DNA of 64,000 nucleotides from Actinomycetota bacterium (GTDB lineage Bacteria > Actinomycetota > Thermoleophilia > Gaiellales > Gaiellaceae). Where the stretch lies: NCBI GenBank assembly GCA_003161615.1, contig PMOB01000019.1, positions 114,728 to 178,727 of the forward strand, in the 5' to 3' direction. The notes beneath the pieces are model-generated. The model saw nothing but the letters and a program-made list of their open reading frames with translations. It had not been told where the DNA came from and did no database searches. The number at the start of each line of letters is the position of its first letter. Position 1 is the first letter of the stretch. This document shows positions 6,104 through 63,383 of this stretch, piece after piece. The position numbers were made by a program, and so were the translations under genes.

Positions 6104-6116
6104 CACCGGCAGCCTA
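6104..6116 (-). promoter_or_regulatory. Leaderless-type -10 box before the COG4315 gene
   Basis: On the minus strand TAGGCT (6111-6116) lies seven bases upstream of the ATG at 6103 and no Shine-Dalgarno sequence is present, the arrangement expected when transcription starts at the start codon. Confidence 0.55.
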
Positions 6117-6240
6117 CCGTCCCGCCACGGCTTCGGGTCAGATCCCTCGGATGGGGGAGGTTTGCGCAGATCCGCACAGGCGATGATCGTCATGACTCCG
6201 CTCGGGGCTGACGGCAATCACTCTGCGGCGGAACATTCGG

Positions 6241-6272
6241 AGCGGCGGGCTTGCCCGCCGCTTCTGTGTTTT
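6241..6272 (+). terminator. Hairpin with CTTG loop and T-rich tail in the leader of the kinase-aminotransferase gene
   Basis: A perfect 10-bp inverted repeat (6241-6250 and 6253-6262, AGCGGCGGGC / GCCCGCCGCT) closes on a CTTG tetraloop and is followed on the plus strand by TCTGTGTTTT. No plus-strand gene ends just upstream, so it sits in the 5' leader of the gene starting at 6288, 15 bases before the start codon. A competing 6-bp pairing (6198-6203 with 6240-6245) would break the stem. This looks like an attenuator, but no known riboswitch class is recognised. Confidence 0.5.
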
Positions 6273-6287
6273 CGACAGACTCGCCCT

Positions 6288-8480
6288 GTGGAAGACGGAT
6301 CCGTTCTCGCCGCGGCTCCGCCGCAGTTCGGCGCCGAGGATGCCGCGCGGATCGCGGCCGAGCTGTTCGACGTCGCGGGCCGCGCGAGCGAGCTCGGAAG
6401 CGAGCGCGACCAGGCGTTCCTGCTCGAGGACGGCGGCGCCGGCGCCGTCCTGAAGATCTCGAACAGCGGCGAGGACGCGGCGCTGCTCGACTTCGAGGAG
6501 GCGGCGATCGCGCACGTCGCCGGGGTTGATCCCACGCTGCCGGTCGCGCGCCCGCTCGCGGCGCGCGCGAGCGTCGACGGCCACCATGTCCGGCTCTTCG
6601 AGCTGCGCCACGGCCACAAGGGCGGGCCGGAGCTCGACGACGCGGCGCTGCGCGCACTCGCCGGCGTGCACGCGCGACTCTGCCTCGCGCTCCGCTCCTT
6701 CTTCCACCCGGCCGCGGGCCGGGAGCTGCTCTGGGACATCCGCCAGGCGCCGCGCCTGCGTCCACTACTCGAGGCGATCGAGGATCCGGACGGACGCGCG
6801 CTCGCGGCGCGGACGCTCGCCGGCTTCGAGCAGCGCGTGCTGCCGCTCTGGCCGCGGCTGCGAGCCCAGGTCGTGCACGGCGACTTCAACCTCGACAACC
6901 TCCTGCTCGACGAGCACGACCGCGTCAGCGGGATCCTCGACTTCGGCGACTGCTGCCATACCGCGCTCGCCGCCGACCTCGCCGTCGCGCTCGCCTCGTT
7001 CCTGCGCGGACGGCCGGAGGCGGACGTGTTTCGCGCCGCCCGCGTCGCGCTCGACGGCTACGCGTCACGACTTCCGCTCGAGCCGCTCGAGCTGGAACTG
7101 CTCGGAGACCTCGTCGCTGCGCGGCTGACGGCGATCGTTGCGATCAGCGCCTGGCGGAGGCGCCGCTACCCCGAGAACTCCGCCTATATCGGGGCCTGGG
7201 ACGAGGACTCGTGGCGACTGCTGCGTCTCTTCGACGAACTGGGGCCGGAGACCGTCGCGCGCGAGCTCGGCGCCCGCGGCCCGGCGACCGCGACTCCGGA
7301 GCTCGCCCGCCGGCGCAACGAGGCCGCGGGCGCGCTGCTCTCGCCGCTCACGTACGCGCGTCCGGTGCACGCCGTGCGCGCGGAGGGCGTCTGGATCCAC
7401 GACGCCGACGGCAGCCGGCTGCTCGACGCGTACAACAACGTCCCCGTCGTCGGCCACTGCCACCCGCGCGTGACCGAGGCCGTCGTCCGGCAGACGCGGC
7501 TGCTCGCGACGAACGCGCGCTACCTCTACGAACCGCTTGTCGAGCTGTCGGAGCGCCTGCTCGCGACGTTCCCGCCGGAAGCGGGGCTCGACACGGTCAT
7601 CCTGGTCAACTCGGGGAGCGAGGCGAACGACCTCGCCTGGCGGCTCGCGACCGGAATCACCGGCAACGCGCGCAGCCTCGTGACCGAGCACGCCTACCAC
7701 GGCGTCAGCGAGGCCACGAGCGCCTTCTCGCCGGAGGAGTGGGGGGACGGAGCGGGACCGCAGCACGTCGTCCGCATCCCGCCGCCCGGATCCGGCGCCG
7801 ATCTCGAGGCCGCGCTCGCAGGGCTCGACGGCCTCGCGGCCACGTTCCTCGACGGGTCGCTCATGAGCGACGGCATCTACACGCCGAGCAGCGCGGAGCT
7901 GCGGCTCCTCGTCGAGCGCACCCACGCCGCGGGCGGGCTCTACGTCGCGGACGAGGTGCAGGCCGGTCATGGCCGGCTCGGGCAGCTGTGGTCGTTCGCG
8001 CGGCACGGCATCCGGCCGGACATCGTCACGCTCGGCAAGCCGATGGGGAACGGGTATCCCGTCGCCGCGCTCGTCACCCGGCGGGAGCTCGCCGAGCGCT
8101 TCCCCTACTCCGGCCGGACGTTCAGCACCTTCGGCGGCAACCCGGTCGCGGCGAGTGCCGCCGTCGCCGTGCTCGACGTCCTTGCCGACGAGCAGTTGCC
8201 CACGCGCGCGGCGGCGGTCGGCGAGCGCCTGCGCGCCGCGATCGCCGCACTGGGAAAGCCGGACGTGCGCGCGGTGCGCGGCGCCGGCCTGCTCGCGGGC
8301 GTGCAGCTCGCGAGCCCCGAGCTGGCGCGGTCCGTGGCCGACGCGCTACGGGAGGGGGACGTGCTCGTCGGCCGCACCGGCCCGCGCGACGACGTGCTCA
8401 AGATCCGGCCGCCGCTCGTCTTCTCCGACGAGCACGCCGAGCTGCTCGTCGCGGCGCTCGGCCGTATCCTCCGCGACTGA
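6288..8480 (+). CDS. Fusion of APH-type kinase and class III aminotransferase-fold enzyme (putative kinase/phospho-lyase)
   Basis: 730 residues. Residues 1 to about 330 are an aminoglycoside-phosphotransferase-fold kinase: catalytic HGDFNLDN at 197-204 and metal-binding DFGD at 218-221. Residues about 345-730 are a class III PLP enzyme with NSGSEAND, ADEVQAGHGR and the Schiff-base lysine in TLGKPMGNG (K584). The same pairing occurs around hydroxylysine and ethanolamine kinases and their AGXT2L-type phospho-lyases, so a two-step reaction (phosphorylate an amino alcohol, then eliminate phosphate and ammonia) is my inference; a plain transaminase is the alternative. The GTG at 6288 is the likely start; longer in-frame starts would translate through the 6241 hairpin. 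It overlaps the creatininase-family gene (ATGA at 8478-8482). Confidence 0.8.
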   Translation: MEDGSVLAAAPPQFGAEDAARIAAELFDVAGRASELGSERDQAFLLEDGGAGAVLKISNSGEDAALLDFEEAAIAHVAGVDPTLPVARPLAARASVDGHHVRLFELRHGHKGGPELDDAALRALAGVHARLCLALRSFFHPAAGRELLWDIRQAPRLRPLLEAIEDPDGRALAARTLAGFEQRVLPLWPRLRAQVVHGDFNLDNLLLDEHDRVSGILDFGDCCHTALAADLAVALASFLRGRPEADVFRAARVALDGYASRLPLEPLELELLGDLVAARLTAIVAISAWRRRRYPENSAYIGAWDEDSWRLLRLFDELGPETVARELGARGPATATPELARRRNEAAGALLSPLTYARPVHAVRAEGVWIHDADGSRLLDAYNNVPVVGHCHPRVTEAVVRQTRLLATNARYLYEPLVELSERLLATFPPEAGLDTVILVNSGSEANDLAWRLATGITGNARSLVTEHAYHGVSEATSAFSPEEWGDGAGPQHVVRIPPPGSGADLEAALAGLDGLAATFLDGSLMSDGIYTPSSAELRLLVERTHAAGGLYVADEVQAGHGRLGQLWSFARHGIRPDIVTLGKPMGNGYPVAALVTRRELAERFPYSGRTFSTFGGNPVAASAAVAVLDVLADEQLPTRAAAVGERLRAAIAALGKPDVRAVRGAGLLAGVQLASPELARSVADALREGDVLVGRTGPRDDVLKIRPPLVFSDEHAELLVAALGRILRD

Positions 8481-9181: not shown

Positions 9182-9201
9182 CATAGCCGCGCACGGCGGC
9201 G

Positions 9202-9214
9202 TATAACCACCGGG
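9202..9214 (+). promoter_or_regulatory. Leaderless-type -10 box before small lipoprotein gene
   Basis: TATAAC at 9202-9207, one base from the TATAAT consensus, lies seven bases before the ATG at 9215. No Shine-Dalgarno sequence is seen. Confidence 0.5.
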
Positions 9215-10554: not shown

Positions 10555-10560
10555 CTCCGT

Positions 10561-12144: not shown

Positions 12145-12156
12145 TACTCTGCAGGC
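12145..12156 (+). promoter_or_regulatory. Leaderless-type -10 box before the small zinc-finger gene
   Basis: TACTCT at 12145-12150 ends six bases before the ATG at 12157, without a Shine-Dalgarno sequence. Confidence 0.5.
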
Positions 12157-12399
12157 ATGCCGATGCTGCATGGGTGCGCGTTTCCGGATTGCACCACGTT
12201 CACCCTCAGTACGTACTGCGTCGAGCACGAGCTCCTCATCCGCGTCATGAAGGAGACGGAACGTGCGCACGCCGCGCACCCGCTCGAGGTCGTGGCCGAG
12301 GAGACGGAGCGTGCGCACGCCACGCACCCGCTCGAGGTCGTGGCCGACGCTGCGCTGGCCGCCACGGCGGACGACGCGCCCGAGCCTGCGGCCTTCTAG
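12157..12399 (+). CDS. Small zinc-finger-like protein with a 16-residue tandem repeat
   Basis: 80 residues. The N-terminus has C7-x4-C12-x8-C21-x2-H24, a short treble-clef/zinc-ribbon pattern (PxC...YCxxH) seen in many tiny actinobacterial and phage proteins, probably binding one zinc. Residues 33-64 are two nearly identical copies of ETERAHAAHPLEVVAE. The DNA copies (12253-12300 and 12301-12348) differ at only three positions, two of them synonymous or conservative, so the duplication is recent or homogenised. The tail is Ala/Asp/Glu-rich. No function is known. It is convergent with the anti-sigma-like gene four bases away. Confidence 0.65.
   Translation: MPMLHGCAFPDCTTFTLSTYCVEHELLIRVMKETERAHAAHPLEVVAEETERAHATHPLEVVADAALAATADDAPEPAAF
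12253..12348 (+). repeat. 48-bp in-frame tandem duplication
   Basis: Two adjacent 48-bp units (12253-12300, 12301-12348) differ at three bases and encode two 16-residue repeats within the small zinc-finger protein. Confidence 0.95.
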
Positions 12400-15363: not shown

Positions 15364-15367
15364 GCCG

Positions 15368-24889: not shown

Positions 24890-24902
24890 GCACGCGATGG
24901 TA
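24890..24902 (-). promoter_or_regulatory. Leaderless-type -10 box before aacS
   Basis: TACCAT on the minus strand (24897-24902) lies seven bases before the GTG at 24889; no Shine-Dalgarno sequence is present. Confidence 0.5.
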
Positions 24903-24915: not shown

Positions 24916-24927
24916 TAATGTCCCGCC
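24916..24927 (+). promoter_or_regulatory. Leaderless-type -10 box before gltA
   Basis: TAATGT (24916-24921) is followed by six bases and then the GTG start at 24928. With the opposing aacS box it makes a back-to-back promoter in a 38-base gap. Confidence 0.6.
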
Positions 24928-26175
<1,248 letters not shown>

Positions 26176-26193
<18 letters not shown>

Positions 26194-27078
26194 CGCGTCC
26201 CGCTCGGCCGGGGAGAGCGGATTCGCGAGTGCGGCGAGCGCCGGCTGGAGTTGCTTCGGGTTGCGCGGCCCGATGACGACCGAGACGCGCGGGTCGGCGA
26301 TCAGCCAGGCGAGGGCGAGCGTCGCCATGTCGCCCCGGCGCTCTAGGCCTTCGAGCGCGTCGTAGATCCGGTCGTCGCGAAAGTGCTCGTACGCCTCGGG
26401 CCGCATGGTCATCCGTGACCCGTCGGGCACCGCTTCACCACGGCGGTACTTCCCCGTCAGCCAGCCACCGGCGAGCGGGCTGAAGGCCTGGAACCAGACG
26501 CCGCGCTCGGAACAGAGCGGCAGGATCTCGCGCTCCTGCTCGCGGTCGAGGAGCGAGTACGAGTTCTGGACGGCGGAGAAGGCACCCGCCTCGAGCGCTT
26601 CTCCGAGCTGCGCGGCGTCGACGTTGCTGACGCCGTAGGCGCCGATCTTCCCGGCCGCGACGAGCTCCTCGAAGACGCCCACAACCTCGGCGGCCGGCAC
26701 GTCGGGATCCCACTCGTGGCCGAGATAGAGATCGACGCGCTCGACGCCCAGGCGCTGCAGGCTCGTATCGATCTGCCGCCGCACGCGCGCCGGTGCGAGA
26801 CCGAGATCCTCGCCGTCGTTCATGCGGTAGAAAGTCTTCGTCGTCAAGCGGAGACCGTCGGGGCGGCGCGAGCGGATCCACTCGCCGATGTACGTCTCGC
26901 TGCGGCCGCCGCCGTAGGCGTCGGCGGTGTCGAACCACGTCAGCCCAGCCTCCCAGGCGGCATCCATCAGCTCGAACGCCTGCTCCTGATTCTCGCCGCG
27001 ACCGAAGAACGCGGGAGCCGAACCGACGCCGCCGAAGTTGCCACAACCGAGTAGGACCGGTGGGTAGGCTCGGTCCAT
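26176..27078 (-). CDS. Aldo/keto reductase
   Basis: 300 residues of the NADPH-dependent AKR (TIM-barrel) family. The catalytic tetrad is D50, Y55 (FDTADAYGGG), K81 (TKTF) and H121 (LGHEWDPD). The C-terminal PLAGGWLTGKYRRGE and VVIGPRNPKQL segments bind the cofactor phosphate region. The substrate is unknown. Its ATG (27076-27078) overlaps by two bases the ATG of the divergent class V PLP enzyme, and a TAGGGT box stands seven bases upstream inside that gene, so it is probably leaderless. The 3' end overlaps gltA by 18 bases. Confidence 0.92.
27065..27076 (+). promoter_or_regulatory. Leaderless-type -10 box before the class V PLP gene
   Basis: TAGGCT (27065-27070) ends six bases before the ATG at 27077. 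The box lies inside the first codons of the divergent aldo/keto reductase. Confidence 0.6.
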
Positions 27079-28255
27079 GGCGGCGACCCTATTGGACGTC
27101 GATGCGGTTCGCGCGCGGTACGCCTCGCTGAGGGACGGCGGCTTCGTCTACTTCGACGCGCCCGGCGGCTCGCAGGTTCCGGACGAGGTCGGAGACGCCA
27201 TCGCGCGCGCCCTGCGCGAGGCGAGCGCGAACATCGGCGCCACCTACGAGTCGAGCCACCGCGTGGAGGGGATCCTCGCGCAGGCGCGCGAGGACGGTGC
27301 GCGCTTCCTGAACTGCTCCGCCGACGATGTGATCTTCGGCCAGAACATGACTGTCCTCGACTTCGCGCTCTCGCGCACCGCAGCCCGCGACTGGAAAGAA
27401 GGCGACAAGATCCTCGTCTCGCGTCTCGACCATGACGGCGGTGTCGCACCGTGGGTCGAGCTCGCCGCCGACCGCGGCTTCGAGGTCGAGTGGGTCGACG
27501 TCACCGACGACCTCCGTCTCGACTACGACGACCTGGAGCGGAAGCTCGACGAGCGGGTCCGCGTTGTTGCGTGCGTCGCGTCGTCGAACGCAATCGGGAC
27601 AATCGTCGACGTGGCGCGCGTCTCGGAGCTCGCGCACAGCGTGGGCGCCCTGTGCTGGGTCGACGCCGTGCAGTACGCCGCGCATGTCCCGACGGACGTC
27701 CAGACGCTCGACTGCGACGTCTTCATCTGCTCCGCCTACAAGTTCTGCGGGCCGCACCTCGGGCTCGCGTATGGCCGGCACGAGCTGCTCGAGTCGTGGC
27801 GTCCCTACAAGGCGCGCCCGGCCGCGTCCGACCCGGTCGGCCGCAGCTTCGAGCCGGGCACGGCGTCGTACGAGCTCCTCGCCGGCTTCTCCGCGACGAT
27901 CGCGTACCTCGAGTCGATCGGAGGCATGGAAGCCGTCGTCGCCTACGAGCGAACGCTCGGCCAGCACTTCCTCGACGCGCTGCCCGAGGGCACGGCGGTC
28001 TACGGCGAGCAGACGATGGACGGACGCGTGCCGACGTTCCTGATCAACCTCGAGGGCGTCGACGCGGTGGATGCCGTACGGCAGCTCGGCGAGCGCGGCT
28101 ACGGCGTCTGGGCGCACGACAACTGGTACTCGCTCGGCCTGCGGGAGAAGCTCCCGTACCCCGGCTCCGCGATCCGCGTCGGCCTCATCCACTACAACAC
28201 GGTGGAGGAAGTCGACGGCTTCGCGCGCGAGCTAGGGGCTCTCGCCGGCCAGTAG
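27077..28255 (+). CDS. Class V PLP enzyme of the cysteine-desulfurase-like (VC1184) type, lacking the catalytic Cys
   Basis: 392 residues. The fold-type I class V pattern is clear: VYFDAPGGSQVPDEV at the N-terminus, DHDGGVAPWVELA, WVDAVQYAAH and the PLP lysine in CSAYKFCGPHLG. Family members near SufS use a Cys in an R-x-G-x-x-C loop; here the equivalent region reads GVWAHDNWYSLGL with no Cys, so true cysteine desulfurase activity is unlikely. It fits a subfamily often labelled cysteine desulfurase by similarity. An epimerase, lyase or kynureninase-like role is possible but not shown. It ends 24 bases inside the convergent dehydratase gene. Confidence 0.8.
   Translation: MAATLLDVDAVRARYASLRDGGFVYFDAPGGSQVPDEVGDAIARALREASANIGATYESSHRVEGILAQAREDGARFLNCSADDVIFGQNMTVLDFALSRTAARDWKEGDKILVSRLDHDGGVAPWVELAADRGFEVEWVDVTDDLRLDYDDLERKLDERVRVVACVASSNAIGTIVDVARVSELAHSVGALCWVDAVQYAAHVPTDVQTLDCDVFICSAYKFCGPHLGLAYGRHELLESWRPYKARPAASDPVGRSFEPGTASYELLAGFSATIAYLESIGGMEAVVAYERTLGQHFLDALPEGTAVYGEQTMDGRVPTFLINLEGVDAVDAVRQLGERGYGVWAHDNWYSLGLREKLPYPGSAIRVGLIHYNTVEEVDGFARELGALAGQ
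27079..27091 (-). promoter_or_regulatory. Leaderless-type -10 box before the aldo/keto reductase
   Basis: TAGGGT on the minus strand (27086-27091) lies seven bases before the ATG at 27078 and within codons 4-5 of the divergent gene. Confidence 0.55.
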
Positions 28256-46560: not shown

Positions 46561-47012
46561 TACTGCTTGGCGGCTTCCTGCACCTGCGCGTCGAGCGCAG
46601 CGAGGACGTGCTGGACCTGCTGGTTGACGATCGGCTGGAGGACGCGCTGTCCCATCGATCCGACCGGCCCGGCGATCTTCACGTCCGCCGACCACGCCAT
46701 CGACGTGCCTCCCTCGGGAGCGTCGCCGAGCGTGAACGAGGTCTCCATATTCATCATCGCGCCGACCCCGTGGCCCTTGACCGAGAGCTTCGCGAACTCC
46801 GGCTCGCGCTCCTCGATCTTCTCCATGTCGACCTTCATCTTCAGGCCGCCGAGGCCGAGCGGGATCTTCACGTTCGCCGTCCAGCGCCGGTCGTCGTGGA
46901 TGTCGAAGCTCTCGACGCCGGGCATCGTCTTCGCCATCGACTCGGGGTCGTTGAGGACTTGCCAGACGAGGTCGCGCGGAGCATCGAACGTCTTCTCTCC
47001 CGAGACGTTCAC
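46560..47012 (-). CDS. CoxG-like SRPBCC protein
   Basis: 150 residues, one SRPBCC (START/Bet v1-like) domain: VSGEKTFDAPRDLVWQVLND at the N-terminus, MAKTMPGVESFD, then a helix at the end (VLQPIVNQQVQHVLAALDAQ). CoxG proteins accompany CO-dehydrogenase/xanthine-dehydrogenase-type molybdenum enzymes and are thought to aid assembly or membrane recruitment; this one lacks the C-terminal membrane helix of CoxG proper. The GTG overlaps the large-subunit stop by four bases. Confidence 0.85.
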   Translation of the reverse strand: MNVSGEKTFDAPRDLVWQVLNDPESMAKTMPGVESFDIHDDRRWTANVKIPLGLGGLKMKVDMEKIEEREPEFAKLSVKGHGVGAMMNMETSFTLGDAPEGGTSMAWSADVKIAGPVGSMGQRVLQPIVNQQVQHVLAALDAQVQEAAKQ

Positions 47013-49429
47013 CGCAACATCTCCCACACGCGGCGATACGGGTTGTGGCTGTCCGTCACGACGACGCCTGTTGCGTCCTGGATCGCCGCGCAGACCGCGT
47101 GGATTCCGGCGCCGCCGCCCTCGCCCATTCCCTTCGTTCCGAGCGGGGTGAACGGGGACGGGCTCTCGATCGCGCCGGTTGCGAGCGGCGGCATGTCGAG
47201 CGCGTGCGGGACGTGGTAGTCGTAGAAATTGGGCGTCAGCAGGTTCCCGTCCTCGTCGTATTCGTAGGTCTCGTGGATCACGGCGCCGATCGCCTGCGCG
47301 GTCGCGCCCATCACCTGCCCCTCGACGATCTGCGGGTTGATCCGCTTGCCGCAGTCGTCCACCGCGGCATAGTCGACGATCTCGTAGTAGCCCGTCTCCG
47401 GGTCGATCTCCACCACTGCAACGTGGAGCTGCGCCGCGTACGTCAGCGTCAGGTTGCCGAACTTCGTCTCGACGTCCGGCACCTCGAACGGCGGCCGGTA
47501 GACGTAGCGGCAGTTGAGCGTCACGTCGAGGTCCTCGGGGAGGCCGGCGTTGTTCGCGTTGATGATCGCGCCGCAGGCCATGAACGGGAGGAAGGCGTCG
47601 GGGTTCTCCTTGATCCGGATGCCGCCGTCCGCAAGCTCGAGCGCCTCGGCGGGGACGCCGCCGAAGACCGCGCCCGCGAGCTTGAAGATCTCGTCGCGCA
47701 GCATCTCGGTCGCGCCCTTCACGGCCGAGAGGCCGGTGACCGCGAACTGGCTCGCGTACGTGCCGGAGAAGCCGGCGTGCGAGTTCCAGTAGCTGTCGTG
47801 GCCGGCGCGCACGTGGACGTCCTCGAGCGCGCAGTTGAGGATGTCGGCGACGACCTGTGCGGCGGTCGTCTCGTGGCCCTGTCCCTGCGGCGTCGTCCCG
47901 AGGGTCACGACGATCTCGCCGAAGATGTCGAGCTTGACCGTGGCGACCTCGTTGTTGCCGGAGAACTGCAGCTCCGGATTGATCAGCCGCGACTGGCCGA
48001 AGTTGTTCGTGCCGGAGTCGAGCGTCGAGCCGATCCCGACGCCGAGGAGCTTGCCCTGCTCTTTCGCAGCCGCCTTCCGCCCGGCCATCGCGTCGTAGTC
48101 GATCAGCTCGAGCGCGAGATCGAGCATCCTGGCGTAGTCGCCGGAGTCGTAGACGCAGCCGTTCGGCGTCTCGTACGGCATGTCCTCGGCGCGGATGTAG
48201 TTCTTCTTGCGCACCTCGACGGGGTCGAGGTCGAGTTCCTTGGCGACGATGTCGATGACACGCTCGGTGAACCAGAGGTGCTGCATCCGCGAGTAGCCGC
48301 GATTTGGGGAGACGGGCGCCTTGTTCGTCGCCACTTGCGTGAAGTCGAGCTCGATGTGCCGCCAGCGGTACATCCCGGGCGTGACCTGCGCCCAGATCAC
48401 GCCGCCGAGCGGCTCGTAGCGGAGCCACGCGCCGGCGTCGTCGAGGGCCTTCGTCCGGAAGCCGAGCAGCGTCCCGTCGTCCTTGACGGCGACCTTCGTG
48501 TCGCGGAACCAGCGCTCGTTGCCGTGTGACATCGAGAGGTGGAAGTCGGTCCGCCACTCCGTCCACTGGATCGGCCGGTTGAGCTTGCGCGCCAGGAGGC
48601 AGCAGACGACGAGCTGCGGATGCGACGTGATCTTGTTGCCGAAGCCGCCGCCGATGTCCTGCGTGACGAAGCGGAGCTTGTCCAGCCCCACCTTCATCGC
48701 CGGCCCCATCATGATCGCGGCGAAGCCGGGGAACTGGTTGTTCGTGTGGATCGTCCACTGCTCGACGCCGCGGTTGAACTCGACGAGCGCGCCGTCGCAT
48801 TCGAGCGGGGTCGAGTTGAAGCGGTGGAAGTGGAGCTCGGGAATCTCGATGACGCGATCCGCCTCGGCGAACGCAGCGTCGAGGTCGCCCCACGAGTAGA
48901 GGCCCGTCCACATCAGGTTTCCCTCGGCGTCGTCGTGGAGGACCGGCGCGTCGGCGTCCTGCGCGTGGCGCGCATCGACGACCGCCGCGAGCGGCTCGTA
49001 GTCCACCTCGACGAGCTCCGAGGCGTCGCGCGCGAGCTCCCGCGTCTCGGCGACGACCGCGACGACCGGCTCGCCGACGAACCGCACCTTCCCGAGCGCG
49101 AGCGAGTAGTCCTTGATGTTCGCGCCCGGCGCGCTCGAGATCTGGAAGAACGGATCGGTGAGCGCCGCGACCTCCTCGCCGGTCAGCGTCCCGTAGACAC
49201 CGTCGACCGCCTCGGCCGCCGAGACGTCGATGCGCGTGATGTGAGCGTGCGCGTACGGCGAGCGCACGAAGTGGAGGTAGCCCATCCCGTGCCGCTTGAT
49301 GTCGTCGACGAAGACGCCCTCGCCCTGCAGGAGCCGCTTGTCCTCGCGGCGCTTGACGCTCTGGCCGGCCCAGCCCTTCTGCACTTCGACGGGCGCCGGT
49401 GCGACGGTGGTCGTGCTGTCTTCGGTCAC
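47009..49429 (-). CDS. Molybdenum hydroxylase large subunit (CoxL/XDH-like, not CO dehydrogenase)
   Basis: 806 residues. The N-terminal aldehyde-oxidase/xanthine-dehydrogenase a/b hammerhead starts after GQSVKRREDKRLLQGEGVFVDD; the cofactor domain includes QDIGGGFGNK, TTPQGQGHETTAAQV and the catalytic Glu in TKGMGEGGGAG. The substrate-side loop reads APVSPNRGYSRMQHLWFTER: neither the CSFR of form I CO dehydrogenase nor the YRGAGR of form II. So a CO-dehydrogenase call is not supported; hydroxylation of an N-heterocycle or other organic substrate is more likely. The GTG overlaps the small-subunit stop by four bases. Confidence 0.85.
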   Translation of the reverse strand: MTEDSTTTVAPAPVEVQKGWAGQSVKRREDKRLLQGEGVFVDDIKRHGMGYLHFVRSPYAHAHITRIDVSAAEAVDGVYGTLTGEEVAALTDPFFQISSAPGANIKDYSLALGKVRFVGEPVVAVVAETRELARDASELVEVDYEPLAAVVDARHAQDADAPVLHDDAEGNLMWTGLYSWGDLDAAFAEADRVIEIPELHFHRFNSTPLECDGALVEFNRGVEQWTIHTNNQFPGFAAIMMGPAMKVGLDKLRFVTQDIGGGFGNKITSHPQLVVCCLLARKLNRPIQWTEWRTDFHLSMSHGNERWFRDTKVAVKDDGTLLGFRTKALDDAGAWLRYEPLGGVIWAQVTPGMYRWRHIELDFTQVATNKAPVSPNRGYSRMQHLWFTERVIDIVAKELDLDPVEVRKKNYIRAEDMPYETPNGCVYDSGDYARMLDLALELIDYDAMAGRKAAAKEQGKLLGVGIGSTLDSGTNNFGQSRLINPELQFSGNNEVATVKLDIFGEIVVTLGTTPQGQGHETTAAQVVADILNCALEDVHVRAGHDSYWNSHAGFSGTYASQFAVTGLSAVKGATEMLRDEIFKLAGAVFGGVPAEALELADGGIRIKENPDAFLPFMACGAIINANNAGLPEDLDVTLNCRYVYRPPFEVPDVETKFGNLTLTYAAQLHVAVVEIDPETGYYEIVDYAAVDDCGKRINPQIVEGQVMGATAQAIGAVIHETYEYDEDGNLLTPNFYDYHVPHALDMPPLATGAIESPSPFTPLGTKGMGEGGGAGIHAVCAAIQDATGVVVTDSHNPYRRVWEMLR

Positions 49430-49878
49430 TTCGCCACCGCCTTGACCGCCTCGAAGATGTTCCAGTAGCCGGTGCAGCGGCAGATGTTGCCCTGCAGCGC
49501 CTTCTTGATCTCCGCGTCGGACGGGCTCGCGTTGTCGCGGAGCAGAGCCGTCGCGCTCATCAGCATCCCCGGCGTGCAGTAGCCGCACTGGAGCGCGTGA
49601 TGCTCGTTGAACGATTGCTGCAGCGGCGTCAGCTCGCCGTTCTCCGAGATCCCTTCGACGGTCTCGATGCTCGCGCCGTCGGCCTGGACGGCGAGGAGCA
49701 TGCAGCTCTTGACGAGGACGCCGTCGACGATGACCGAGCACGCGCCGCAGTTGCCCGTGTCGCAGCCGATGTGGCTGCCGGTCAGATCGAGGTCGTCGCG
49801 AAGGAAGTGGATGAGGAGCTTGCGCGGCTCGACGTCGCGCGCGTAGGTCGTGCCGTTGACGGTGACCGAGACGTCCAT
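49426..49878 (-). CDS. Molybdenum hydroxylase 2Fe-2S small subunit
   Basis: 150 residues with both 2Fe-2S clusters of the family complete: plant-type cluster C39, C44, C47, C59 and the second cluster C98, C101, C133, C135 (QCGYCTPGM ... NICRCTGYWNI). It passes electrons from the molybdopterin site of the large subunit to the FAD subunit. The ATG at 49878 shares one base with the FAD-subunit stop (TGATG). This gene order, medium-small-large, is the usual one for these enzymes. Confidence 0.93.
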   Translation of the reverse strand: MDVSVTVNGTTYARDVEPRKLLIHFLRDDLDLTGSHIGCDTGNCGACSVIVDGVLVKSCMLLAVQADGASIETVEGISENGELTPLQQSFNEHHALQCGYCTPGMLMSATALLRDNASPSDAEIKKALQGNICRCTGYWNIFEAVKAVAK

Positions 49879-50672
49879 CAGCGGGCCGCTGCCTCCTGCG
49901 CGGCGCGGGTCGCGAGCACCGCGGCGAGATGGAGCCGGTACTCCGCAGAGGCGTGGACGTCGGACGGAGGCTCGATCCCCGCGGCACGCACCGCCTCGGC
50001 GATCCCGTCCGGCGAATCGGCGGTAACGAGGACGGGCACCGCGTCGACGCAGCCGAGCGCGACGCGGACGGAGCCGTTCACCGTGGCCGCGGCGTTGCAG
50101 ATGCACGTTCCCTCGGTGCCGAGCGTGACAGCGGCGAAGCCGTCCTTCTTGCCGGCCGGGATGGCGATCTTCGTCAGCAGCTCGCCCTGCCCGACTGCGG
50201 TCATGTAGACGCCGAGGAAGAACTCCTCGGCTGTGACTTCGCGCTCTCCCGCGGCACCGGCGATCGTCATCCGCGCGCCGACCGCGACCATCAGCGGCGG
50301 CAGGTGGTTCGTCGGGTCGTTCGCGCAGACGTTGCCGCCGATCGTGCCGCGGTTCCGCACCTGGACGTCGGCGATCGTCGCGCAGACCTCGCCGAGGATC
50401 GGACGCGCCTTCGCCTCGGCCGAGCGCATGAGCTCGGTGTACGTCGTCATCGCGCCGATCGTCAGCGTTCCGTCCGCGGCGAGCTCGATCCCGCGCAGCT
50501 CGGCCAACCCGTTGAGATCGACGAGCATGTCGGGAGAGGCCGCGCGGGCCTTCATGACGTTGATCAGCGTCTGGCCGCCCGCGAGCGCGCGGGCGCCATC
50601 GTTCGCGGCGAGCAGCTCCAGCGCCTGCGCGACGGAGCCCGGCTTCGCGTATTCGACCTCGCGCAAGAGCAC
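49878..50672 (-). CDS. Molybdenum hydroxylase FAD-binding medium subunit
   Basis: 264 residues. The FAD-binding signature is ALAGGQTLINVMKAR at about 29-43 and the second motif TIGGNVCAND at about 113-122, followed by a CO_deh_flav_C domain to the end. Electrons arrive from the small subunit and leave to an acceptor not encoded here. The GTG at 50672 is ten bases after the xdhC stop. It is shorter than many CoxM proteins because the C-terminal domain is compact. Confidence 0.9.
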   Translation of the reverse strand: MLLREVEYAKPGSVAQALELLAANDGARALAGGQTLINVMKARAASPDMLVDLNGLAELRGIELAADGTLTIGAMTTYTELMRSAEAKARPILGEVCATIADVQVRNRGTIGGNVCANDPTNHLPPLMVAVGARMTIAGAAGEREVTAEEFFLGVYMTAVGQGELLTKIAIPAGKKDGFAAVTLGTEGTCICNAAATVNGSVRVALGCVDAVPVLVTADSPDGIAEAVRAAGIEPPSDVHASAEYRLHLAAVLATRAAQEAAAR

Positions 50673-50682
50673 GACAGCGATC

Positions 50683-51660
50683 CTATAGAGAGGCGTGAAT
50701 GCGGGTTTCGGCGTCTCTCAGCCGCCCACCGGCGCGGTTCGCGCGGACCGCCAGAATCTCGGCGAGCATCGACAGAGCGGTCTCGGCCGGCGTGTCCGCG
50801 CCGATGTCGAGACCGGCCGGGCCGGAGATGCGGTCGAGGTCGGCATCGGTGACGCCCTCCTCTCGCAGAATCCCGCGCCGGCGCTCCTGGTTCCGGCGAG
50901 AGCCGATCCAGCCGACATAGAAGGCGTCGCTCGCGAGCGCGCCGTGGATCAGGGGCAAGTCGAACTTGTCGTCGTGCGTGAGCACGACCACGGCGGTGCC
51001 GAGGTCCGGCTGCACCTGCGCGAGCGCCTCGTCGGGCCAGGCGAGCAGGAGCTCGTCGGCGCTCGGGAGCCGCTCGGGCGTCGCGAAGCTCGCGCGAGCG
51101 TCCGCGACGACCGTTCGCCAGCCGAGGAGCTTCGCCGCACGGCAGAGCGCTTCGGCCGTGTCCACGGCTCCGTAGACGAAGAGCCGCGCCGGCGGCGCGG
51201 AGACGTCCGCGAGAACCGTGCGGCTCTCGAGCTCGAGCACGTGGCTCCGGCCACGCCGGCGTGCGGCCTCCTCCAGGTCCGGATCGTGGAGTCGCTCCCC
51301 CACACCCTCGCCCGCAACGACGGTCAGCGTCACGTCCGGCCGCTCCACCTCGGTGAACTCCTCGACGAAGACGTCGATCTCGCCACCGCACGGCAGGCCG
51401 ACGCCGAACGCCATCTCGTCGGTGATGCCGTAGGTGAGGAGGCGGGGCGGACCGCCGGCGAGAACTTCCTGCGCCGCGAGAACGACGTCGCTCTCGACGC
51501 AGCCGCCGGAGACGGAGCCCGCGAGCTCGCCGCCTTCGCTCACAACGAGCTTCGAGCCGACCGGCCGCGGCGCCGAGCGGCGCGTGGCAACAACCGTCGC
51601 AAGCGCGACCTTCTGTCCCTGCACCCGCCAACGTCCGGCCTGCGACAGCACCTCGTCCAT
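50683..51660 (-). CDS. xdhC: XdhC/CoxI-family molybdenum-cofactor maturation protein
   Basis: 325 residues with both XdhC domains: the N-terminal CoxI-type part (about 10-75: ATVVATRRSAPRPVGSKLVV and GSVSGGCVESDV) and the C-terminal Rossmann part (LFVYGAVDTAEALC, DARASFATPERLP, LTHDDKFDLPLI, GWIGSRRN). Such proteins bind molybdenum cofactor, promote its sulfuration and insert it into xanthine-dehydrogenase-type enzymes. As first gene of the operon it ties the three downstream subunits to that enzyme class. The start has a TAGATT box seven bases upstream, suggesting leaderless translation, only 18 bases from a divergent gene. Confidence 0.9.
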   Translation of the reverse strand: MDEVLSQAGRWRVQGQKVALATVVATRRSAPRPVGSKLVVSEGGELAGSVSGGCVESDVVLAAQEVLAGGPPRLLTYGITDEMAFGVGLPCGGEIDVFVEEFTEVERPDVTLTVVAGEGVGERLHDPDLEEAARRRGRSHVLELESRTVLADVSAPPARLFVYGAVDTAEALCRAAKLLGWRTVVADARASFATPERLPSADELLLAWPDEALAQVQPDLGTAVVVLTHDDKFDLPLIHGALASDAFYVGWIGSRRNQERRRGILREEGVTDADLDRISGPAGLDIGADTPAETALSMLAEILAVRANRAGGRLRDAETRIHASL

Positions 51661-51673
51661 TCCGGTCAATCTA
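51661..51673 (-). promoter_or_regulatory. Leaderless-type -10 box before xdhC
   Basis: TAGATT on the minus strand (51668-51673) ends seven bases before the ATG at 51660. It is the only promoter-like element seen for the 12-gene molybdenum-hydroxylase operon. Confidence 0.5.
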
Positions 51674-58583: not shown

Positions 58584-59029
58584 TGCCGCGGATCGAACGC
58601 ACCGCGCATGTCGGCTGGGAGGGGAACCTCGCCCGCGGCGCGGGCACGATCGACGCCTCGACCGGCGCCTTCGCGCGGCTCCCCTATTCGCTGCCGTCCC
58701 GCGTCGGCGAGCCGGGCGGGAAGACGAGCCCGGAGGAGCTGCTCGCCGCCGCGCATGGCGGTTGCCTGACGATGTCCCTTGCCGGCGAGCTCACCGCGGC
58801 GGGCACGCCGCCCGGCCACCTGAACGTCGCGTGCACCATCGTCATGGACGAGGTCGAGGGGCAGGGCCACCAGATCGTCGGCTCCCGCGTCGAGATCGAG
58901 GCGCGCGTGGACGGAATCGACGACACGGCTCTCCAGGCTGCGGTCGCGACGGCGGACGAAAGCTGTCCGTTCTCCGCGCTCCTGCGGCGCGCCGGCGCCT
59001 ACGTCGAGATCAGCGCGCGACTCGGCTAG
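58583..59029 (+). CDS. OsmC-family peroxiredoxin
   Basis: 148 residues. The OsmC/Ohr fold is recognised from GKTSPEELLAAAHGGCLTMSLAGEL with C61 and DESCPFSALLRRAG with C128, the two catalytic cysteines that reduce organic hydroperoxides. The GKTSPEELLAAAHGGC spacing suits the OsmC rather than the Ohr branch. It is translated together with the cupin protein. Its TAG shares CTAG with the stop of the convergent aquaporin gene. Confidence 0.92.
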   Translation: MPRIERTAHVGWEGNLARGAGTIDASTGAFARLPYSLPSRVGEPGGKTSPEELLAAAHGGCLTMSLAGELTAAGTPPGHLNVACTIVMDEVEGQGHQIVGSRVEIEARVDGIDDTALQAAVATADESCPFSALLRRAGAYVEISARLG

Positions 59030-59700
59030 CTCGCGGCGGTCTGCCGCCGCGGCGCGAGATAGAGGTACTCGTAGAGGAGCGCTGCCACGAGCGCGCCGGC
59101 GATCGGCCCGACCCAGTAGATCCACCAGCCCGACCACGTGTTGCCCGCGAGCTCCGGGCCGAGCGCGCGAGCCGGGTTCATCGCCGCGCCGGTGACGCGG
59201 CCGCCGACGAGGACGTCCATCGTGATCGTGAGCCCGATCGCGAGGCCGGCGATCGCCTTGAACGCGCCGCGTGTGTCGACGGCCGTCGCCCAGACCGCGA
59301 AGACGAGGAAGAACGTCATGATCATCTCGAGGAGGAACGCCCGGCCGTCGTTCGTGTGGACCGCCGGAGCGGCGCCGAGCACGACCGAGATCTTGCTGAA
59401 GAGGTACCGCAGGATGAAGGCCGCGCTGATCGCTCCGAGCAGCTGCGACACCCAGTAGACGACGGCGAGCAGCGGCGTGATCCGTTTCGTCACGAGGAAA
59501 CCGAGCGTGATCGAGGGGTTGAAATGGCCGCCGGAGATGTGCCCGAGGTTCGTGACCATGATTCCGATCGCCAGGCCGTTGGCGAGCGCGACGGCAACGA
59601 TGTCGTTGCCGCTCCAGATCCCCGCCCCGCCGCCGATGAAGATGAGCGCGAAGGTGCCGACGAACTCCGCAACGCCGCGCTGCAAGAAGCTCTCGTCCAT
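59026..59700 (-). CDS. Aquaporin/MIP-family channel
   Basis: 224 residues with six membrane helices and two half-helix loops. The first loop is HFNPSITLG with NPS at 61-63 instead of NPA; the second is AAMNPARAL with NPA at 175-177 and the conserved Arg178. The residues around the narrow part suggest a water or small-neutral-solute channel; a glycerol facilitator would normally have an Asp after the second NPA region. TAGCCT nine bases before the ATG may be its -10. It is transcribed alone. Confidence 0.9.
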   Translation of the reverse strand: MDESFLQRGVAEFVGTFALIFIGGGAGIWSGNDIVAVALANGLAIGIMVTNLGHISGGHFNPSITLGFLVTKRITPLLAVVYWVSQLLGAISAAFILRYLFSKISVVLGAAPAVHTNDGRAFLLEMIMTFFLVFAVWATAVDTRGAFKAIAGLAIGLTITMDVLVGGRVTGAAMNPARALGPELAGNTWSGWWIYWVGPIAGALVAALLYEYLYLAPRRQTAAS

Positions 59701-59756
59701 CGCCTGGGGAGGCTAAGGAGCGGTTCGGACGGAGCCTCCGCGGGTAAAAGAAGCGC

Positions 59757-59960
59757 GTGACCGGGGTCTCGCAGGAGCGCGAATTCGAGGTGGAGTGCCC
59801 GCACTGCCGCAAGCGTTTCGCGGCGGAGCCGATCAGCGGCGGTCACGCCGCCCGCTACCGCGGCTTCAAGTGCCCGCACTGCAAGCTCTTCGTCCCGCTG
59901 CAGCGCGCCGCCGACCGCGACCTGCTCGAGCCGCTCTCCCGCGATACCGACGCCGAGTAA
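59757..59960 (+). CDS. Small zinc-ribbon protein
   Basis: 67 residues from a GTG. Two CPHC knuckles (VECPHCRKRF and FKCPHCKLFVPL) 24 residues apart form one zinc ribbon of the type found in small nucleic-acid or protein-binding factors. The C-terminal part is acidic (RDLLEPLSRDTDAE). A TAAAAG box six bases before the start may be the promoter. Its TAA abuts the stop of the convergent sigma factor. Function is unknown. Confidence 0.65.
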   Translation: MTGVSQEREFEVECPHCRKRFAAEPISGGHAARYRGFKCPHCKLFVPLQRAADRDLLEPLSRDTDAE

Positions 59961-61064
59961 CTACGAGACGGCGTCGCGCAGCGCCTGCGCCTCGGGCAGG
60001 TGCTCGAGCTTCTTCAGCGTGTTGTTCTCGATCTGGCGGATCCGCTCGCGCGTGACGCCGAAGGCGCGACCGACCTCCTCGAGCGTCCTCGGCTCGCCGC
60101 CGAGCAGCCCATAGCGGAGCTCGATCACCTGCCGCTCGCGCTTGGGGAGCGCGTTGAGCGCGTTCTCGACGTCCTCGCGGCGGAGCATGAGCTGCGCCGT
60201 GTCGAACGGGGACTCCGCGGAGTCGTCCTCGACGAAGTCGCCGAGCGAAGAGTCCTCCTCCTCGCCAATCGGCTTTTCGAGCGAGACAGGTAGCTGCGAC
60301 ATTCGGAGGATCTCCCGCACCTCGTCGGTCGTCATCTCGAGCTCCTCGGCGATCTCCTCCGGGTTCGGCTCGCGACCGAGGCGCTGCACGAGCTGGCGCT
60401 CGATGTGGACGACCTTGTTGAGCTTCTCGACCATGTGGACGGGGATCCGGATCGTGCGGGCCTTGTCGGCGATCGCCCGCGTCACGGCCTGGCGGATCCA
60501 CCACGTCGCGTACGTCGAGAACTTGTAGCCCTTGCGGTAGTCGAACTTCTCCACCGCGCGGATCAGGCCGAGCGAGCCTTCCTGGATCAGGTCGAGGAAG
60601 GAGAGCCCGCGGCCGAGGTAGCCCTTGGCGATCGAGACGACGAGGCGGAGGTTCGCTTCGATCATCGCGGTCTTCGCGGACATGTCCCCGCGCTCGATCC
60701 GCTTCGCCAGGGTCACTTCCTGGTCGGCGGTGAGCAACGGCACCTTGCCGATCTCGCGGAGATAGAGGCGGAGCGAGTCGAGCGAGGGCTCGACGGTCAG
60801 GTCGAGCTTGGGAACCGCGGCGGCCTTCTCGTCCTCCGGCGGCGCTTCCTGGTGAGGCGGCGTCTTGTGCTGCTCGCCCTCTACGAGGTCGATGCCGTGC
60901 TCGACCAGGTAGGTGTAGAAGTCTTCGACCTGCTCCTTCGTGAGCTCGACGTCCTCGAGCCCCGTAACGATCTCGTCGTAGTTGAGGAACCCCTTCTCCT
61001 TGCCCTCGGCGACGAGCTTCTGCAGCTCCTCTACCTCGGGAAGCGAGATGTCGACGGTGAGCAC
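59961..61064 (-). CDS. sigA: Primary RNA polymerase sigma factor (RpoD/SigA group 1)
   Basis: 367 residues. Region 1.1 occupies about 10-65 ([20 protein letters not shown]), region 1.2 about 93-125 ([21 protein letters not shown]), region 2 holds [20 protein letters not shown] and [20 protein letters not shown] (2.4, -10 recognition), region 3 [16 protein letters not shown], and region 4 [20 protein letters not shown] and [19 protein letters not shown]. This is the housekeeping sigma factor that should read the -10 boxes found in this window. Start is a GTG with GGAGG two and GGGAGG about ten bases upstream. A -35/-10 pair lies about 95 bases upstream. Confidence 0.93.
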
Positions 61065-61158
61065 GTCCTCCGAACCTCCCCGGCCTCGTGGTTGTCCCTA
61101 CCGCCCCCCGATGCCCGGCAGTCGCCGGAACCCCGGTCCTCCCTCAATCGCCCGGCGG

Positions 61159-61187
61159 ATACTAGTCACGGGTCGCGGTTTCGTAAA
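61159..61187 (-). promoter_or_regulatory. Candidate sigma-A promoter of the sigA gene
   Basis: On the minus strand TTTACG (61182-61187) and TAGTAT (61159-61164) are separated by 17 bases. It leaves a leader of about 85-90 bases with a ribosome-binding site, unlike the leaderless genes around it. Confidence 0.5.
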
Positions 61188-61194
61188 GAACCTG

Positions 61195-62082
61195 TCAGGA
61201 AGCAGCGGTGACGACCTCGCCGACGCGCTCGCCGCGACTGTTGAGGACGGGGACCTCGGCGAGCTCGTCGACATCGACGCCGATCTCCTTCAGGAACGTC
61301 GCCAGCGCGGGGCGGTGGCCGCGTCCTGCACCGTCCTCGGACTTCAGCGCGATGCCGGTTCCGTCCGGCCCCGCCGCGCAGAGGAGACCCTCGGCGCCAC
61401 CCTTCGCGAGCCAGCCCGGCGCGGCGCGCATGAGGAAGTAGTCGGCGCCGTCGGGGCCGCCGACGAGGTCCGGGCGCGCGCGCATCGCGGCACCGATCCG
61501 CTCGCCACCGGGCAGGGACTCGAGACGCGAGTACGCGTGCGCCATCCGCTCGAGGGTCATGGCGAACGTGACGACACCGCAGCCATCGGTGCCGGTGGGG
61601 AGGTCGTCGAGCTCCGTTGCCTCGGCGTGCGCGTCGCGGCACGCCTGCTGGACGGGATGGTCGGGAAGCCGGTAGCCCTCCTTCGGCCAGCCGCGCGCGT
61701 CGCAGAGGGCGAGCATCCCGGCGTGCTTGCCCGAGCAGTTGTGGTGGATCTTCTGCGGCGGCCGCCCCTCCTGCAGGCCGAGCTCAAGGTCGTCCTCAAT
61801 CGCGTTCCCGCGCGCGAGCAGCTGACGGACGGCCTCCACCTGGTCGGGTGTGTCGTGGTGGGAGGCGCAGGCGATCGCGAGCTCGGCCTCCGCCAGGTCG
61901 TCGCGGGAGCGAACGAGCGGCAGCGCCTGCAGCGGCTTCGAGGAGGAGCGCATGAAGCACGTCAGCTGCGGATCGCCGGCCGCCGCCACGATCTCGCCGC
62001 CGCGCACCGCGACGGCGTGAATGCGGTGCCGCGCCTCGACGATCCCGTTACGGCGCACCTCCACCTCGATCGGGCCGGCCAT
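61195..62082 (-). CDS. Asparaginase of the Asparaginase_II (thermolabile) family
   Basis: 295 residues. Characteristic segments are CFMRSSSKPLQALPLV near residue 45, ACASHHDTPDQV, NCSGKHAGMLALC near 125 and GTDGCGVVTFAMTLERMA near 170, as in L-asparaginases of the PF06089 type that are unrelated to the classical type I/II enzymes. It converts L-asparagine to aspartate and ammonia. A TAGGTT box six bases before the ATG suggests a leaderless transcript, back-to-back with the glycosylase gene 38 bases away. Confidence 0.88.
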   Translation of the reverse strand: MAGPIEVEVRRNGIVEARHRIHAVAVRGGEIVAAAGDPQLTCFMRSSSKPLQALPLVRSRDDLAEAELAIACASHHDTPDQVEAVRQLLARGNAIEDDLELGLQEGRPPQKIHHNCSGKHAGMLALCDARGWPKEGYRLPDHPVQQACRDAHAEATELDDLPTGTDGCGVVTFAMTLERMAHAYSRLESLPGGERIGAAMRARPDLVGGPDGADYFLMRAAPGWLAKGGAEGLLCAAGPDGTGIALKSEDGAGRGHRPALATFLKEIGVDVDELAEVPVLNSRGERVGEVVTAAS

Positions 62083-62094
62083 TCGGGAAACCTA
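62083..62094 (-). promoter_or_regulatory. Leaderless-type -10 box before the asparaginase gene
   Basis: TAGGTT on the minus strand (62089-62094) ends six bases before the ATG at 62082. Confidence 0.55.
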
Positions 62095-62106
62095 CGTCCG
62101 CGGCGG

Positions 62107-62120
62107 TACCGTTCGGAGCG
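62107..62120 (+). promoter_or_regulatory. Possible leaderless -10 box before the Fpg/Nei gene
   Basis: TACCGT (62107-62112) lies eight bases before the ATG at 62121, a slightly longer gap than for the other genes; GGAG at 62115-62118 is too near the ATG to be a good ribosome-binding site. Confidence 0.4.
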
Positions 62121-62948
62121 ATGCCGGAGCTGCCGGAGATGGAGGCGTGGCGGCGCCAGCTCGACGCCCCCGTCGCCGCGTTCCCCGTGGCGAAGGCCGG
62201 GCCTGGGCACATCGCCACGCTGAAGACGTTCGACCCGCCGCCGACTGCGCTCGAGGGACGCCGCTTCCGTGGCGTCGAGCGGCGCGGCAAGCGGCTCCTC
62301 TTCCCGACCGACGACGGCGAGCTCGTCCTCCTCATTCATCTGATGACGGCGGGGCGCCTCAAGTACATCCCCGCCGGCGGCGCCTCGCCGAAGTCGCCCG
62401 CCTTCCGGCTCGAGTTCGCAGACGGCGCGCAGCTCGTCCTCACCGAGAACGCAAAGAAGAAGCGCGCCGGCGTCTGGCTGCTCACGCCGGAAGCCGCCGC
62501 GGCAGAGCTTGCGCACCTCGGTCCCGAGGCACTCGGGCTGGGAGCAGAGCGGCTCGGCGAGATCCTCCACAACGAGTCGCGCCGCCTCCACGCTCTCCTC
62601 CGCGACCAGCGCCTGATCGCCGGGATCGGACGCGCGTGGGCGAACGAGATCCTGCACGCCGCGAAGCTCTCCCCCTACGCCCTCTCGACCGATCTCGACG
62701 ACGAGGAGGTCGCACGCCTCGCCTCCGCAATCGACTCCGAGCTCGAACGCGGGCTCGAGCTACGCGAGGAGGGCGCCTCCGACGAGAAGACGTACCGCGT
62801 CCACCGCCGCCTCGGCGAGCCGTGCCATGTCTGCGGGACGCCGCTCGCGCAGGTCGACTTCGAGGAGCACACGATCTTCTACTGCCCCACATGCCAGACC
62901 GGCGGCCGCGTCCTCAAAGACCGGCGTCTTTCGCGGCTGCTCCGTTAG
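62121..62948 (+). CDS. Fpg/Nei-family DNA glycosylase, divergent active-site variant
   Basis: 275 residues. The N-terminal catalytic MPELPEME (Pro2 acts as nucleophile after Met removal, Glu3), K57 in RRGKRLLF and the zinc finger C235-x2-C238 and C255-x2-C258 identify the family, which excises oxidised bases and cuts the abasic site. Two usual residues differ: the H2TH motif reads GIGRAWANEI, with Arg171 in place of the Asn of GxGN, and the finger has His250 where Arg is expected just before TIFYC. So the lesion preference may differ from classical MutM. It is not called mutM for that reason. Confidence 0.82.
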   Translation: MPELPEMEAWRRQLDAPVAAFPVAKAGPGHIATLKTFDPPPTALEGRRFRGVERRGKRLLFPTDDGELVLLIHLMTAGRLKYIPAGGASPKSPAFRLEFADGAQLVLTENAKKKRAGVWLLTPEAAAAELAHLGPEALGLGAERLGEILHNESRRLHALLRDQRLIAGIGRAWANEILHAAKLSPYALSTDLDDEEVARLASAIDSELERGLELREEGASDEKTYRVHRRLGEPCHVCGTPLAQVDFEEHTIFYCPTCQTGGRVLKDRRLSRLLR

Positions 62949-62957
62949 TCTCCGGCC
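62946..62957 (+). promoter_or_regulatory. Leaderless-type -10 box before the CBS-domain gene
   Basis: TAGTCT (62946-62951) is followed by six bases and the ATG at 62958. The box overlaps the stop codon of the preceding gene. Confidence 0.55.
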
Positions 62958-63344
62958 ATGACGACCGTCGCAGAGGTCATGAACGCGAACGTCCTGACCG
63001 TCGACCCGACGGCGTCGATCGGCGAGGCGGCCGAGAAGATGATCGAGGCCGGCGTCGGCGCGGTCGTGGTGATGGAGGACATGGTGCGGATCGTCGGCAT
63101 CGTCACCGAGCGCGACCTCATGCGCGCGGTCGCGCAGCGGGCGCGGGCGGCCGAGGCGCGGGTGCGGCAGTGGATGACCGAGAGCGTCGTGACGATCGAA
63201 CCGGACACGACGGTCAAGGACGCCGCGAAGATGATGTTCGAGAAGAACTTCCGCCACCTCCCCGTCGTGAACAAAGACGGGCGGCTGCTCGGGATCGCGA
63301 GCCTGCGGCGCCTGTCCCAGTGGGAGTTCGAGCACTCGAAGTAG
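62958..63344 (+). CDS. Tandem CBS-domain protein
   Basis: 128 residues forming a single Bateman module: CBS1 about 5-60 (VLTVDPTASIGEAAEKMIEAGVG... GIVTERDL) and CBS2 about 70-125 (SVVTIEPDTTVKDAAKMMFE... RHLPVVNKDGRLLGIASLRRL). Such stand-alone pairs bind adenosyl nucleotides or regulate partner enzymes; nothing here fixes the ligand. It probably has its own leaderless promoter and is followed by thymidine kinase 39 bases on. Confidence 0.9.
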   Translation: MTTVAEVMNANVLTVDPTASIGEAAEKMIEAGVGAVVVMEDMVRIVGIVTERDLMRAVAQRARAAEARVRQWMTESVVTIEPDTTVKDAAKMMFEKNFRHLPVVNKDGRLLGIASLRRLSQWEFEHSK

Positions 63345-63370
63345 TGGAGGGCTCCGTCGGGTCCCCTTCT

Positions 63371-63383
63371 TAGGGTTGACCCA
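63371..63383 (+). promoter_or_regulatory. Leaderless-type -10 box before tdk
   Basis: TAGGGT (63371-63376) is followed by seven bases and the GTG at 63384, with no Shine-Dalgarno sequence. Confidence 0.55.

Follow-up and report, generated by a model that had tools for sequence, protein, structure and literature searches.

The 64,000-nucleotide stretch analysed here (the window), from an Actinomycetota bacterium of probable Thermoleophilia lineage, contains many genes in which a TANNNT box adjoins the start codon. It is very probable that these genes use leaderless initiation from promoters having the box as their -10 element, with Shine-Dalgarno (SD) leaders used elsewhere, as for sigA, and a folded arrangement of two such promoters at the shared start of genes 27077(+) and 27078(-). 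The boxes stand at a narrow spacing, are enriched over chance and are largely conserved in the genus for four genes examined, and at the shared-start pair they go together with a constraint on codons. As proposed here, TANNNT would be the promoter -10 element, most likely of a housekeeping-type sigma factor; being so near the start codon, it would make the transcript begin on the first base of that codon or 1-3 bases before it, and an mRNA of this kind, without room for an SD site, would be translated as a leaderless message. The remaining genes, e.g., sigA, would be translated via SD leaders. Leaderless initiation as such is ordinary for the phylum; within it, the shared-start pair is a small, testable novelty and the least expected part of the window (27065-27091).

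The number of bases separating a TANNNT box from the start codon is given as k. An exact box is present at k = 6 or 7 before all ten starts listed in an earlier note on this DNA, 6103(-), 12157(+), 24889(-), 24928(+), 27077(+), 27078(-), 51660(-), 62082(-), 62958(+) and 63384(+), and 7/10 of these boxes are TAGNNT, which is the form that the note had given for most of them. Because starts should not be picked by eye, genes were called with a purpose-written program that scores codon usage only and is blind to the sequence upstream of starts. Its output on the window has 61 genes, with 60 starts usable for box counts; it picks the identical ten starts and adds an eleventh with a box at k = 6-7, 50672(-), absent from the earlier list. 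The expression used to find SD motifs matches at one of the 11 window boxes, and by eye this match is the AGGA within the 50672 box.

In the window, the box is found at k = 6-7 in 11/60 starts, with a mean of 0.44 and a maximum of 4 in 1000 dinucleotide shuffles. From the genome to which the window belongs (whole assembly of 35 contigs, 2.3 Mb, 69% GC), a sample of 824 kb with 792 starts was analysed. That the boxes arose by chance in a genome of 69% GC and were simply collected by eye could be argued from the only ten cases first listed, from the choice of starts by eye and from 12157 and 9215, which are weak as genes; this explanation becomes extremely improbable with 108 of the 792 starts (13.6%) having the box at k = 6-7, as compared with a mean of 6.2 and a maximum of 12 in 200 shuffles, and with the box before just 9 of 7627 in-frame ATG/GTG codons inside genes, three times at k = 6 and six times at k = 7. 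It also has against it that the starts were called without upstream signals and that the boxes are conserved in congeners. By offset, the 792 starts have 58 boxes at k = 6, 50 at k = 7, 28 at k = 8, 22 at k = 9 and 9 at k = 10, and all remaining offsets between 0 and 25 have 0-6 boxes each. The earlier note had asked for such a count of the motif by position against shuffled sequence, naming a lack of enrichment as the outcome that would speak against its claim; the count has instead a sharp peak at k = 6-7, far above the shuffled counts. Six relatives were compared, comprising one congener, two members of the family and three of the order; a clear k = 6-7 peak is also present in five of them, G026 being represented by 54 starts only.

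The same boxes recur before orthologous genes of the genus, in counts that include the window's own copy. The tdk gene (63384-63980(+); box TAGGGT, 63371..63376(+), k = 7) has the box in 16/16 genus loci, 14 of them with k = 7 and two with k = 8, and the asparaginase II-like gene (61195-62082(-); box TAGGTT, 62089..62094(-), k = 6) has TANNNT 6-9 nt before the start in 11/11 genus loci, the start being the extrapolated one or 3 nt after it. For the citrate synthase gene (24928-26193(+); box TAATGT, 24916..24921(+), k = 6), 7/8 close orthologues have the box, six at k = 6 and one at k = 9, with L178 and L179 excluded (61% and 47% identical, start not alignable). The gene of a major intrinsic protein of the aquaporin family (59026-59700(-), Pfam PF00230; box TAGCCT, 59710..59715(-), k = 9) has a box at k = 7-9 in 6/7 readable close orthologues, excluding L255, which runs off the contig end, and the 42% identical paralogues L256 and L257. 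A formamidopyrimidine-DNA glycosylase-like gene (62121-62948(+); box TACCGT, 62107..62112(+), k = 8) keeps a k = 8 box in 3/4 loci where the gene was seen. The box is present in 0/8 and GGAGG in 8/8 readable close orthologues of sigA (excluded were L265 and L267, which run off the end, L273, whose alignment begins only at residue 188, and the paralogues L268-L272, of 52-58% identity), and its earlier assignment as an SD gene is borne out. From these orthologue counts, both initiation modes appear to persist gene by gene where tested.

Regarding gene context, the box at k = 6-7 is found in 51/258 divergent starts, in 16/178 co-directional starts with 40 or more bases to the preceding gene and in 41/356 closer co-directional starts; in the tightest co-directional pairs, it overlaps or adjoins the end of the gene before. 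The box is thus not restricted to first genes, since it is also present at closely spaced co-directional starts. The description of the boxed genes as first genes is only partly right: 62958, 63384 and 50672 come 9, 39 and 10 bases, respectively, after a same-strand gene. An SD motif is found in 10 of the 108 starts with a k = 6-7 box, compared with 219/792 overall. The base at -1 is C in 66% and 68% of the k = 6-7 starts; for SD-type starts the share is 38% (Fisher p = 1e-6), and for those having neither signal it is 47% (p = 4e-4). In Mycobacterium tuberculosis, according to the available portion of PMC3898074, transcription start sites (TSSs) have a preference for C at -1 and for T at +2, and no -35 motif is seen. 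The C preference at -1 in the k = 6-7 starts speaks for transcription beginning at the first base of the start codon. With the k = 6-7 peak, the SD depletion, the C at -1 and the gene-wise conservation all agreeing, the coexistence of leaderless and SD initiation put forward in the earlier note is supported.

The 217 starts with k = 6-9 of G000 and G015 were also searched for a -35 element or any further motif ahead of the box, and none was found; no position exceeds 0.07 bits, and a search for positional 5-mers in the same starts gave none that was convincing (best uncorrected p 1e-4). A likeness between the tdk and aquaporin genes, CCGTC-N12-TANNNT, did not generalise and was dropped. The search for the anti-Shine-Dalgarno tail with GGNTCACCTCC was uninformative, having nine matches in the own genome and six in backward controls. 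Among the genes of the own genome, codons ending in TA make up 0.9-1.4% at codons 4-6 compared with 0.25-0.6% at codons 2, 3 and 7-11; perhaps some starts were called too far upstream of a leaderless start. As for sigma factors, sigma70 region 2 has 25 matching places in the 2.3-Mb genome, the window's sigma gene being at 59961-61064(-), and several sigA paralogues of ~45-60% identity are found across congeners, two of them near each other on opposite strands (G000:C16:17117 and 18224).

The folded arrangement is formed by the gene of a cysteine desulfurase-like protein of aminotransferase class V (27077..28255(+); Pfam PF00266, NCBIfam TIGR01976) and that of an aldo/keto reductase (26176..27078(-); Pfam PF00248), whose start codons overlap by two bases in a CCATGG palindrome (27075..27080), with predicted 5' ends at 27077(+) and 27078(-). 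The putative -10 box of the desulfurase-like gene, TAGGCT (27065..27070(+), k = 6), lies within codons 3-5 of the reductase, and that of the reductase gene, TAGGGT (27086..27091(-), k = 7), lies within codons 4-5 (ACC CTA) of the desulfurase. Each box is thereby placed within the first five codons of the opposite gene. As the two predicted core promoters converge on the same stretch of DNA, a bound polymerase should, by analogy with bidirectional promoters (PMC12825309), keep a second one from binding, and initiation at the two starts would be mutually exclusive.

Both boxes and the two-base overlap are kept in 13/14 distinct genus orthologues of the pair, 12 of them directly and L025/L054 after a one-codon alignment shift; loci that duplicate an already listed start region and the more distant loci L048-L053 and L063 onward are excluded from these counts, except for L072, a genus orthologue, which is counted. 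The TANNNT of the desulfurase gene is present in 14/14, at k = 6 in 12, at k = 7 in L025 and at k = 8 in L033. All 13 overlapping orthologues have CTA or GTA as desulfurase codon 5, although TA-ending codons make up 0.3% of codons overall and 1.3% at this position. In L033/L061, where the two genes are ~75 bases apart, desulfurase codon 5 is CTG and the reductase box within the desulfurase gene is lost; the moved reductase has its own TAGCGT-N7-ATG, and the desulfurase box is retained at k = 8. No codon ending in TA is found at codon 5 in the 11 alignable homologues that have no reductase in the fetched DNA (L036-L044, L046 and L047), L047 having ATA at codon 4.

The conservation of these letters could have its origin in the proteins, the boxes being kept for the amino acids of the reductase N-terminus (MERAY) and of the desulfurase (TLLDV) and not as promoters, and the reductase N-terminus is indeed M, then D/E/Q/S, then RAY in 12/13 overlapping orthologues. 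This explanation is very improbable, however, as the rare CTA/GTA is retained across a change between Leu and Val, the TAGGCT letters are unchanged in L025/L054 even where they fall in another reductase frame, and the separated orthologue has CTG at codon 5 and a new box before the moved reductase. From the codon 5, L033/L061 and L025/L054 patterns, a promoter constraint and not a protein constraint is argued. We consider it reasonably likely that the locus is a conserved reciprocal leaderless pair, with a palindromic shared start in which the first five codons of each gene hold the -10 element of its partner, acting as a mutually exclusive switch that fixes rare codons in both enzymes.

The reciprocal geometry was also sought within the order, in an even sample of 61 genomes taken from a larger group, each with a completeness of 85% or more. 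The pattern TANNNT-N5-CATG-N6-ANNNTA has 15 matches in these genomes compared with 9 for the backward control, and a version with the spacing shifted by 3 has 3 matches, apparently of one homologous site, compared with 4 for the backward controls. Long coding-like open reading frames (ORFs) on both strands are found in only 5/15 matches, all at the shared-start locus (L215-L219); among the other 10, the opposite ORF is 4 to 39 codons long in eight, and those of L220 and L221 are short or truncated. Overlapping divergent calls with a box on both sides are 1/5 in the own genome and 0/4 in the six relatives. The geometry was rejected as a class, and the arrangement is assigned to this one locus because only its five matches have long genes on both strands.

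A wider regularity was also considered, in which divergent leaderless pairs would be spaced by rule (about -2, 18-23 and 38 bases) through overlap of their -10 elements. Of the 129 divergent gaps of the own genome, 9 are at 17-24 and 9 at 37-40, six of them at exactly 38; under a jitter null, the 38-base cluster has P = 0.007 as a single cell and 0.03 in a 3-base window, and the 17-24 group fits the bidirectional promoter distances of 18 and 23 bp given in the excerpted text of PMC12825309. Such a rule is nevertheless unlikely, since gaps of 37-40 are not clearly repeated in the six relatives (2/44, 0/28, 1/24, 3/38, 0/11 and 0/10), the 38-base spacing at citrate synthase (24889/24928) is found in no relative, and that between the asparaginase-like and glycosylase-like genes (62082/62121) recurs in L185, the genes being 698 bases apart in L182 and 14 in L190. 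Several of the 17-24 gaps consist entirely of a symmetric double -10 region, e.g., CTAGGCTAGC (own genome, L148:4631-4650 and L005:17076-17097), fitting putative bidirectional promoters of the 18-23 bp kind.

Several observations weigh against leaderless initiation as the general reading of the boxes. The start codons are predictions of the purpose-written caller and not curated ones. Of the early candidates, 9215, with a near-match box, is no gene according to the caller and has no Pfam match, and 12157, an ORF of 80 aa, scores low on codon usage and matches neither Pfam nor NCBIfam. The peak is weak in the relative G025 (1, 4, 2 and 5 of 83 at k = 6-9), the citrate synthase orthologue L177 has a G-rich stretch in place of the box, the aquaporin orthologue L252 also lacks it, and common descent means that the 14 orthologues of the pair do not count as independent events. 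Finally, 50/792 starts have a box at k = 8-9 only, predicting leaders of 1-3 bases instead of none.

This k = 8-9 group is found in 36/258 divergent compared with 14/534 co-directional starts, and its starts have no C preference at -1 (46% and 23%), which suggests leaders of one to three bases for these genes. It bears on a further alternative, namely that the promoters are real and yet a substantial share of the transcripts have leaders of 1-10 bases, being near-leaderless and not leaderless. The absence of the C preference in these 50 starts agrees with it, as does Propionibacterium acnes, in which, within the portion of PMC3848588 available, 50 start codons overlap TSSs and 88 follow TSSs within 10 nt; at k = 6-7, by contrast, the C at -1 indicates a TSS on the start codon. 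This alternative is possible, at less than even probability. The k = 8-9 group is strong in this genus, in starts of G000 and G015 and at 62121(+) and 59700(-) in the window, and by the same method it amounts to 0/114 in Marisediminicola and 1/131 in Brevibacterium.

The other genes of the window with a candidate -10 box include a Lipoprotein_15 repeat protein (5642-6103(-); TAGGCT, 6111..6116(-), k = 7), the weakly supported 80-aa ORF (12157-12399(+); TACTCT, 12145..12150(+), k = 6) and acetoacetate-CoA ligase (22964-24889(-); TACCAT, 24897..24902(-), k = 7). Also included are a CBS-domain gene (62958-63344(+); TAGTCT, 62946..62951(+), k = 6), where the stop codon of the gene before it supplies the TAG of the box, an XdhC family protein (50683-51660(-); TAGATT, 51668..51673(-), k = 7) and an FAD-binding molybdopterin dehydrogenase subunit (49878-50672(-); TAGGAT, 50680..50685(-), k = 7). 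The last two belong to a molybdenum hydroxylase cluster (46560-51660(-)) encoding CoxG-like, large, FAD and XdhC-like proteins, with two leaderless-type starts within it (50672 and 51660).

These observations extend leaderless initiation in silico to a probable Thermoleophilia lineage and can aid the placement of start codons in such genomes. The shared-start pair also offers a clean natural test of promoter information within coding sequence, in which one gene should fall silent through a single synonymous change that does not alter the protein of the other.

The earlier note had regarded the density and spacing of the boxes as unusual, and this view is not sustained by comparison with known systems. 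Zheng et al. described leaderless genes in 86/89 actinobacterial genomes, at around 20% and with TAnnnT (PMC3160421, in part); in mycobacteria, nearly one quarter of transcripts (PMC4633059, from the excerpt available) and 26% of genes with a primary TSS (PMC3898074) are leaderless; and in Deinococcus radiodurans nearly one third of genes have the same box ~6-7 bp upstream (PMC12340547, in the section at hand). By the same method as used here, k = 6-7 boxes are found in 17/114 starts of Marisediminicola senii and 7/131 of Brevibacterium, compared with 13.6% in this genome, and Vibrio has no peak (4 and 0 of 107). Among the matches listed in the open-licence literature on leaderless genes in Thermoleophilia and Acidimicrobiia and on divergent, bidirectional or overlapping starts, none, in the parts of the texts available, covers this clade or shared-start leaderless pairs; in one of the papers Thermoleophilia appears, in those same parts, only in a table of anti-SD types.

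The genes described here are like the TA-led leaderless genes of actinobacteria (PMC3160421), which have TAnnnT and, in the portion available, a TA-like signal ~10 bp upstream of the start; unlike that set, they are from a probable Thermoleophilia lineage and include the additional k = 8-9 group of this genus. They share with Mycobacterium (PMC3898074 and PMC4633059, as excerpted; 22-26% of genes) the TANNNT -10 element, the lack of a -35 consensus, the C at -1 and the use of both ATG and GTG starts; the mycobacterial case is founded on TSS mapping and ribosome profiling, and the present one on inference from sequence. The -10-motif class of Deinococcus-Thermus (PMC12340547), from another phylum, is similar in having TANNNT ~6-7 bp upstream beside a ribosome-binding-site class. 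The 27077/27078 pair resembles the bidirectional promoters with shared -10 elements (PMC12825309 and PMC10268837, from the text available), in which opposing promoters occupy the same DNA and polymerase binding is mutually exclusive. Those promoters have TSSs 7-25 bp apart and reciprocally overlapping -10s; at 27077/27078, in contrast, the boxes are 15 bases apart and flank the starts, the predicted TSSs overlap at a distance of about -1, and the two putative promoters face each other from inside the opposite coding sequence.

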